From: Aurantiacibacter atlanticus | Lineage (GTDB): Bacteria; Pseudomonadota; Alphaproteobacteria; Sphingomonadales; Sphingomonadaceae | Length of the DNA stretch: 64,000 nt | Direction: 5' to 3' | Assembly (NCBI RefSeq): GCF_001077815.2 | Contig: NZ_CP011310.1 | Span: 2,418,001 to 2,482,000, forward strand | Shown: piece after piece, positions 10,782 to 11,529 of the stretch | How the letters are laid out: the number at the start of each line of letters is the position of its first letter | Position numbering within the stretch: position 1 is the stretch's first letter | The notes under the pieces: generated by a model | The model's input: only the letters and a program-made list of their open reading frames with translations | Told to the model about the DNA's origin: nothing | The model's database searches: none | Position numbers and translations under genes: made by a program

Positions 10782-10811
10782 GGTTGCTGGCCGATCAGTT
10801 GGCCAGCAACC
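10782..10811 (-). terminator. Perfect 11-bp hairpin over the pspC stop codon
   Basis: On the minus strand GGTTGCTGGCC and GGCCAGCAACC pair perfectly around an 8-base loop that contains the pspC TGA. No T run follows. It may be a transcript-end stabiliser or a Rho-independent terminator of the atypical, U-poor kind. It separates the pspC operon from tRNA-Arg, which is read in the same direction. Confidence 0.45.
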
Positions 10812-11004
10812 ATATTACAAGATAGAAAAGGATAAAGCTGCCAAAGCCAACTATAGCCCCTATCGCAAAGATCAGCCGGACGATCAGCGGATCGATCTTG
10901 AAATAATTGGCGATCCCACCGCACACGCCGGCAATCTTGCCATTGGCACTATCAAGACGAAACCTGGCCGGGGTGCCATTGGAGGTTTTACGAATCTTGT
11001 TCAT
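10795..11004 (-). CDS. pspC: PspC domain protein (phage shock envelope stress)
   Basis: A 69-residue protein whose middle and end form a PspC domain: GKIAGVCGGIANYFKIDPLI is the hallmark, followed by one long hydrophobic helix (RLIFAIGAIVGFGSFILFYLVIWLL). PspC proteins sit in the inner membrane and take part in sensing envelope damage. The protein is shorter than enterobacterial PspC (about 119) and keeps only the core domain. Its ATG overlaps the stop of the preceding 42-residue gene (ATGA), so translation is coupled. A predicted sigma-54 promoter further upstream fits the way psp genes are controlled in enterobacteria. No pspA, pspB or pspF is in the window. Confidence 0.9.
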   Translation of the reverse strand: MNKIRKTSNGTPARFRLDSANGKIAGVCGGIANYFKIDPLIVRLIFAIGAIVGFGSFILFYLVIWLLAN

Positions 11005-11129
11005 GCCAGCATCCCGGTGAAAGTCGTGGTAGCGGGATTTGCAAAGCTGCTGAACAGCAGGGTGGCGGTGATGGCAACAGCGCCGAATGCAGCGGCAGCC
11101 TTGCCGGCAAATTCATTGGTAAAAGTCAT
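11001..11129 (-). CDS. Small 42-residue protein, second of a tandem pair
   Basis: Short frame from ATG 11129 (AGGAG 8 bases upstream) to a TGA that overlaps the pspC ATG. It has one hydrophobic segment, about residues 11-29 (AAAAFGAVAITATLLFSSF), then ANPATTTF and an end in GMLA. By my count it matches the neighbouring 42-residue protein at 22 of 42 positions, including NxFAxK near the start and SSFANP. It could be a single-pass membrane peptide or a secreted peptide cleaved after SFA. Homology, equal length, good ribosome sites and coupling to pspC argue that it is real. Confidence 0.8.
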   Translation of the reverse strand: MTFTNEFAGKAAAAFGAVAITATLLFSSFANPATTTFTGMLA

Positions 11130-11168
11130 TATATGGCTCCTGAAGTATCTGGTTTGGTCGGGGGCGAC

Positions 11169-11297
11169 TCAGGCAAGCAGGCCTGCAACGCTGGCGGCGT
11201 TGGGATTTGCAAAACTGCTGGCCATCAGGGTGACCGTCATGGCGATTGCGCCGAGACCGGCGAACAATTTGGCAGCGAAATTATTGGTGCTGAACAT
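11169..11297 (-). CDS. Small 42-residue protein, first of a tandem pair
   Basis: First gene after the predicted sigma-54 promoter. ATG 11297 is preceded by a GAGG ribosome site at about 10 bases. The protein starts MFSTNNFAAK, has a hydrophobic stretch at about residues 11-29 ending MASSFANP, and ends in AGLLA. It is a paralogue of the next gene 39 bases downstream and has exactly the same length. I do not recognise the family. By analogy with small membrane partners in other Psp systems it could sense or buffer membrane stress, but that is inference. Confidence 0.78.
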   Translation of the reverse strand: MFSTNNFAAKLFAGLGAIAMTVTLMASSFANPNAASVAGLLA

Positions 11298-11356
11298 GAA
11301 AACAATTTCCTCATTGTGGGACGTTTGCACTGTGCTGCGTCCTATACTTCACAACT

Positions 11357-11374
11357 GTGCAGGAGGCGTGCCAA
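11357..11374 (-). promoter_or_regulatory. Predicted sigma-54 (RpoN) promoter
   Basis: Minus strand TTGGCACGCCTCCTGCAC matches the consensus TTGGCACG-N4-TTGCA except for C in place of the first T of the -12 box. The invariant GG and GC are separated by exactly 10 bases. Counting from the -12 C at 11359, transcription would start at about 11347, giving a 50-base leader before the first small gene. Confidence 0.75.
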
Positions 11375-11432
11375 ACCGGAAAAATCGCAGAAATCTGCCA
11401 ATTTCGTTCAAGAAGCAGAAAGGTTTCATGTG

Positions 11433-11454
11433 ATCCTATCCCAAGAATTAGGAT
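11433..11454 (-). promoter_or_regulatory. Candidate activator site upstream of the sigma-54 promoter
   Basis: ATCCTA and TAGGAT form a perfect inverted repeat with a 10-base spacer. Flanking GTGA and TCAC extend the symmetry, with a two-base bulge on one side. Its centre lies about 97 bases upstream of the predicted start, where enhancer-binding activators of sigma-54 usually bind. The activator would be a PspF-like protein encoded elsewhere. Confidence 0.45.
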
Positions 11455-11529
11455 TTCACACCAAGTTAGAGCATTGCTGTTTTCGACTGGTGTCGGAATA
11501 GGTGCTGGCATAGGAACGACAGCGCACCC

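Follow-up and report, generated by a model that had tools for sequence, protein, structure and literature searches.

The short operon that lies opposite recF in Aurantiacibacter atlanticus is probably a second PspF-controlled sigma-54 operon of the Psp system, with two small proteins as membrane effectors and a minimal PspC. This reading is the most likely one because a candidate enhancer stands at the canonical position and because, among the sites scored in the genome, this promoter and the canonical psp promoter rank at the top. Psp, PspF and PspC are known; what most likely is new, judging from sequence comparison, is a second PspF operon whose small proteins lack a family name.

Layout of the operon

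The window, that is, the whole stretch of 64,000 nucleotides analysed, belongs to a genome of two contigs and contains the following features.

11465-10795, minus strand: whole operon, from the candidate enhancer to the end of pspC
11447..11465, minus strand: PspF-type upstream activating site (candidate enhancer) CTTGGTGTGAAATCCTAAT, of the TTGG-N9-CTAA type
11433..11454, minus strand: inverted repeat ATCCTA (11454-11449)-N10-TAGGAT (11438-11433), its left arm inside the candidate enhancer
11386..11399, minus strand: palindrome-like element, consensus GGCAGAATTCTGCC, here GGCAGATTTCTGCG, between the candidate enhancer and the -24 box
11358..11373, minus strand: sigma-54 -24/-12 promoter TGGCACGCCTCCTGCA, GG and GC ten bases apart
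11169..11297, minus strand: putative small membrane protein gene 1, 42 codons, conserved and under purifying selection
11001..11129, minus strand: putative small membrane protein gene 2, 42 codons, paralogue of gene 1, its stop overlapping the pspC start (ATGA)
10795..11004, minus strand: minimal pspC, 69 codons, PspC domain alone
10782..10811, minus strand: RNA hairpin over the pspC end, -22.9 kcal/mol, z -5.35, with the pspC stop codon in the loop
11530-12627, plus strand: recF, divergent from the operon (TIGR00611, 233.5 bits, cut-off 172)
10705-10629: tRNA-Arg gene, downstream of pspC

Each of the 42-codon ORFs is preceded by a ribosome site of the GAGG/AGGAG type, and the products of the two genes share 22 of 42 residues (52%), which reproduces the count on which the sequence-only reading had called them paralogues. 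The coupling of pspC by ATGA, claimed there as well, was confirmed as a four-base overlap with small gene 2, and the product of pspC matches PF04024 (66.6 bits, cut-off 25, E 1.7e-18). The hairpin at 10782-10811 has no T run behind it and does not appear in the output of the terminator scan; it is possibly the 3' end of the transcript or an RNA-stability element.

Sigma-54 promoter and candidate PspF enhancer

The near-consensus -24/-12 promoter proposed from the sequence alone is present at 11373-11358 and conserved within the genus. The box agrees with TGGCACG-N4-TTGCA at 11 of the 12 scored positions, and transcription is predicted to start near 11347. Because the genome contains 79 strings of the form TGGCAC-N6-TGC, as against 32 for the reversed pattern, such a string is weak evidence by itself, and it is conservation that carries the case: of the 23 same-genus loci recovered by the single-protein search, 22 have an unaltered box, as do two further genomes of the genus (G016 and G021). 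The 23rd locus, that of A. xanthus (L024), has TAGCAC for TGGCAC behind a good, intact enhancer, a naturally altered promoter that might be used as a negative control.

The candidate enhancer begins 92 bases before the -24 box (hereafter -92), roughly at -118 to -100 relative to the predicted start; the canonical pspF-pspA promoter has this site too, at an equal distance from its -24 box. A 19-base matrix was built from canonical same-genus pspF-pspA regions alone (18 of the 19 fetched; L052, a same-genus pspF locus with no box by the rule used, was left out), and was used to scan, on both strands, the 150 bases upstream of every unit promoter; L024, with its TAGCAC, and G021 are not part of this set. 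The top match fell at -92+/-1, which is the canonical position, in 73 of 82 unit promoters and in 8 of 410 shuffled regions, counts that apply to regions preselected for a sigma-54 box and to related genomes that are not independent. All 27 same-genus loci behaved in this way, as did at least one locus in 33 of the 41 genera; for the other eight genera the top match was not at -92. Judged one by one against dinucleotide shuffles, 33 of the 82 regions reached p<=0.01, and the enhancer of A. atlanticus itself was weak with this canonical-only matrix (score -1.7, p 0.64 against shuffles). Since this copy scores poorly alone, the case for the enhancer rests on position and conservation. A second matrix, made from 38 same-genus sites with A. 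atlanticus excluded, was applied to 59 of the 79 sites in its genome, in a scan that took TGGCAC-N6-TGC boxes only (the first 30 in the list and, from the remaining 49, the 29 with A or G after TGGCAC); the canonical psp promoter scored 19.9, this operon 12.7 and the next site -2.7.

The inverted repeat that the sequence-only reading had pointed out is present, but it is not conserved and is not the activator site: ATCCTA-N10-TAGGAT within two mismatches was found in 3 of 82 unit promoters, that of A. atlanticus included, which is no more than chance. A perfect 6-bp inverted repeat of one sequence or another was present in 55 of the 82 unit regions, as against 32 of 82 after shuffling. The repeat was therefore rejected as a conserved activator site in favour of the overlapping TTGG-N9-CTAA site as candidate enhancer; what the upstream regions have in common is the canonical psp enhancer at the same spacing, not the repeat.

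The palindrome-like element has a wider distribution, GGCAGAATTCTGCC within four mismatches being found in 55 of 82 unit promoters and in none of the 82 after one shuffle, and we know of no protein that binds it. Situated between enhancer and promoter, it might be read by another activator, in which case the operon would be sigma-54 dependent and driven mainly by an enhancer-binding protein other than PspF, and would not be a Psp stress unit. Candidates for such an activator exist, as the PspF model has six matches in the genome with one of them above the cut-off, and the weakness of the enhancer in A. atlanticus would fit. This explanation is nonetheless improbable, given that the palindrome is found in the same place, at -26, in 7 of 18 canonical psp promoters too, that the site at -92 agrees with the canonical enhancer both in its sequence and in its spacing, and that the operon ends in a PspC gene.

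Control by PspF thus stays the preferred reading, and the proposal of a Psp-type unit gained from the follow-up on each side: rpoN and pspF (472 bits, cut-off 443.55), for which a check had been suggested, are both found in the genome, the canonical psp enhancer occurs at the same spacing, and the layout is kept. From the apparent PspF control we infer that the operon would be active under envelope stress.

Conservation of the unit

A single-protein search of 41 genomes gave matches in 26 at E<=1, including 23 of the 25 same-genus genomes (A. atlanticus counted); the matches outside the genus (G026, G033 and G038) are without such a layout and were dropped. In all 23 same-genus loci the small ORF or ORFs are followed by a PspC of 68-73 residues, the overlap between the last small ORF and pspC is four bases long (ATGA or GTGA), and recF adjoins the unit, once as a fragment at a contig end. 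One small ORF is present in seven of these loci, two in 13 and three in three, and in one of the 23 (L019) it is a third small ORF that overlaps pspC. The remaining two same-genus genomes, G016 and G021, have the unit as well, as found by profile search, and it is carried by four further Aurantiacibacter genomes from the family-wide profile search. The unit, with one to three small genes and a short pspC, is consequently present in 29 of 29 Aurantiacibacter genomes examined.

In the family as a whole, matches to the small-protein profile at E<=0.01 were obtained in 36 of 298 genomes, belonging to 14 of 91 genera, and 24 of the 27 new loci obtained with it have the box, a small ORF and an adjacent pspC. 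L091 and L092, which are canonical leaders before pspA, and L090, which is without pspC, were left out of the counts over 82 loci and 121 small proteins; L066 and L070 repeat genomes already covered. At L090 (G225, genus g89) a related small gene of 44 residues stands behind a sigma-54-like box, with no pspC within 1.4 kb and no -92 site.

The PspC profile matched 286 of the 298 family genomes, a count in which canonical PspC is included. Among the matches listed, 40 PspC loci were picked by hand, one or two per genus from 36 genera, and in this selection, which does not give an unbiased rate, 36 of 40 have a box of at least 10/12 no more than 800 bases away, and in 35 of these 36 one or more small hydrophobic ORFs precede pspC. 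At L126 box and pspC are present and no small ORF was called, and at L117, L127, L131 and L133 there is no box of at least 9/12 within 800 bases. At L127 (genus g31) two genes for PspC-domain proteins are adjacent and the 800 bases upstream contain no sigma-54 box, so that a second PspC is present in another arrangement.

Altogether, 121 small proteins from 82 loci in 40 genera (the 41 less genus g84) were collected, a set that includes L024 and leaves out G021 and the third small ORF of L019, the latter also absent from alignment A1. In other genera, the last small ORF and pspC mostly share four bases; three loci have a one-base overlap, and in four units the two genes do not overlap but are separated by 30-45 bases. 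The small genes, the -24/-12 box and pspC thus stay together genus-wide and in many other genera, which was the check proposed at the outset. Sixty-one genomes from other families of the order gave one PspC match in 48 cases, two in five and none in eight, counts by which the unit is possibly confined to the family.

Small proteins under selection

In the copy beside pspC, pN was below pS in 249 of 253 pairs, with a median dN/dS of 0.52 (174 usable pairs); the corresponding figures were 118 of 120 pairs and 0.42 for the first small gene copy, and 253 of 253 pairs and 0.34 for the PspC of the unit. Since an off-frame control, the same DNA shifted by one frame, gave 230 of 253 pairs and a dN/dS of 0.71, it is dN/dS and not the pair count that separates the true frames. 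Amino-acid selection on the small genes is mild but clear, and the ratios of 0.52 and 0.42 are not near 1, the value that had been named as speaking against conserved peptides. A C-terminal alanine, usually after a hydrophobic residue, ends 107 of the 121 small proteins, among them 71 of the 82 copies beside pspC.

The tight overlap with pspC and the low residue identity between genera could be taken to mean that the small ORFs make no functional protein and serve only as leaders for pspC translation. It is hardly credible, however, in view of the amino-acid selection, of the tandem arrangement, with two or three copies, at 16 of the 23 same-genus loci and of the upstream copies, which overlap nothing, are under no overlap constraint at the C-terminus and still keep it (36 of 39 end in Ala). 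Functional small proteins are accordingly preferred.

These proteins have 36-52 residues. A 19-residue window with a Kyte-Doolittle value of 1.6 or more is present in 119 of 121, a count that is partly circular because hydrophobicity (outside the genus) or an S-F-type motif (inside it) was among the criteria for picking small ORFs; the charges and the tail end are unaffected by this choice. K or R precedes the hydrophobic stretch in 113 of 121 and follows it in 3 of 121, D or E occurs in the tail of 27 of 121, and proline is found at or after the end of the stretch in 117 of 121. AlphaFold2 predicted for small protein 2 a helix at 2-29, a break near N31-P32 and a second helix at 32-41, with a mean pLDDT of 77.3 that is lower towards the end. 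From these predictions the small proteins look like single-helix membrane proteins of N-in/C-out topology, the N-terminus being placed inside by the positive-inside rule.

Many copies contain S-S-F-A before N/T-P, which presumably resembles a signal-peptidase site, and the short ORFs might then encode exported peptides, with a cleavable signal helix and about 12 residues released. That they do so is very unlikely: the motif is not kept elsewhere, being SYFA in several same-genus species and AIVPA in other genera, and the hydrophobic stretch and the C-terminal tail are kept where it varies. The single-helix membrane protein is thus retained as the working description.

Neither Pfam nor NCBIfam gave a match above cut-off for the small proteins (best PF13630, E 0.12), and there is no curated-family match that would place them in PspG, PspD or other named small Psp families. 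Matches to PHROGs were at chance level (best E 0.03, with 1-2 of 41 members each). One database relative was found by single-sequence protein search and 80 by alignment search; none of the 80 has a Pfam domain, and the 17 that are named are each called 'hypothetical' or 'uncharacterized protein'. In the literature searched, which covered few subscription journals, no description of the small proteins or of the unit was found, in agreement with the suggestion that they had not been described before. In their main text, the Psp surveys of 2024 (PMC11237479) and 2022 (PMC9239133) make no mention of 'small protein' or 'Sphingomon'; the former mentions PspB duplicates and the latter pspG.

The tail, which is preserved where the remaining sequence diverges, permits a further, unlikely proposal, namely that the small proteins form a new family of effectors or regulators in the Psp system and that the tail is a ligand for a PDZ-type or tail-specific protease. 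If the predicted topology is right, such a ligand would sit in the periplasm, and, if the proposal is true, recognition of the tail by the protease would tune the lifetime of the small proteins and report the state of the envelope to PspC/PspA. A cytoplasmic FtsH/ClpXP tag, an idea modelled on the LpxC-type tail, was rejected on the ground that the predicted topology places the tail outside.

Minimal PspC and the canonical psp locus

The minimal PspC reaches 53.8 of the 104 bits required by the TIGR02978 equivalog model, and thus stays below the cut-off, aligning with model positions 5-58 of 121; by these profile matches it is a PspC domain only and not a full-length envelope-stress PspC. A search for solved structures gave none at E<=1, and the AlphaFold2 model is of low confidence (65.5). 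The canonical psp locus (L004), with PspF, PspA and PspC, is about 21 kb from the operon. Its PspC has 128 residues, passes TIGR02978 (128.8 of 104 bits) and is 39% identical to the minimal PspC over 54 residues.

The operon resembles this canonical pspF-pspA-pspC locus in enhancer sequence and spacing, sigma-54 box and PspC-domain gene, as well as in having a small hydrophobic first gene that ends in -LA and overlaps the next start; it differs in that the canonical operon has pspA and a PspC of equivalog rank. The small hydrophobic protein that opens the canonical operon is encoded at L050:2672-2824 (the canonical psp locus of G000, outside the window). In the genus, canonical leaders of this kind have about 50 residues, overlap an N-extended pspA by GTGA or ATGA and were seen by eye in 18 of 18 boxed same-genus promoters, 17 of them being included in alignment A2. 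No Pfam match was obtained. An hhalign comparison with the small proteins gave a probability of 0.2% over one column, and two canonical leaders of genus g84 (L091 and L092) gave weak matches to the small-protein profile (E 0.0019); on sequence grounds, a common origin of leader and small proteins is possible.

Six loci from other families of the order (L035, L036, L037, L041, L056 and L059) have a different leader ORF after the canonical psp promoter, of about 48-59 residues, starting with MN(I/M/T)L and, by eye, mostly arginine-rich at the end. At L004:6646-7283, two ORFs follow the canonical pspC, and both show in their later parts a weak match to the C-terminal half of TIGR02978 (positions 67-121, E 8e-5, and 78-121, E 5e-4). 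Neither matches PspB at E<=0.001, and the weak matches could mean that the ORFs are pieces of a PspB or PspC that has diverged.

Proposed function and comparison with known systems

Psp is a general bacterial membrane-stress response, and in enterobacteria PspF is activated upon membrane stress and the effectors act at the inner membrane. By analogy with the Psp system of E. coli, damage to the inner membrane or to the proton motive force would cause PspA to let go of PspF, which would then bind the candidate site at about -118 to -100 and drive the sigma-54 polymerase at 11373-11358. The small proteins would be made together with the extra PspC-domain protein by way of the stop-start overlap, would insert in the inner membrane with the N-terminus inside, and would have a local effector role there, helping PspC/PspA to hold or seal the damaged membrane. 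This effector role is what we infer by analogy; the enterobacterial background for PspF activation and effector action at the inner membrane is covered in the available part of the 2022 survey (PMC9239133).

The small proteins are similar to YohP of E. coli and other stress-induced single-helix proteins in size, in having one predicted helix and in the link to stress (PMC12719787, available part). As YohP is of the same size class and single-helix form, and as it both dissipates the membrane potential and leads to higher PspA and PspC (PMC12719787, available part), the small proteins might instead be stress-induced silencers that lower membrane potential and feed back on Psp induction. We regard this as rather unlikely, since they appear to be controlled by PspF, whose work in E. 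coli is to protect the membrane, and since up to three small-gene copies are kept per unit. YohP is not given as a PspF target or as an operon partner of PspC in the part of that report available. Protection is favoured over silencing because the small proteins are made with PspC.

The enterobacteria offer a second comparison. PspG is a small inner-membrane protein, and its gene in E. coli and Yersinia is an orphan PspF target, comparable to the present operon, itself a probable second PspF operon; the present operon differs from pspG in encoding two paralogous 42-residue proteins and a minimal PspC. According to the available part of the 2022 survey, psp and pspG are the only known PspF targets in E. 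coli (PMC9239133). In Zymomonas mobilis, the hypothetical protein ZMO1062 has been placed with the psp genes ZMO1061 and ZMO1063-1065, which are induced by ethanol (PMC3495753); that observation concerns the canonical locus, and a second operon is not described in the available part of the report.

The fixed layout in at least 40 genera makes the unit a test bed for tiny membrane proteins in the Psp response. Together with the canonical psp locus, the operon would provide a clear regulon to measure in alphaproteobacteria.
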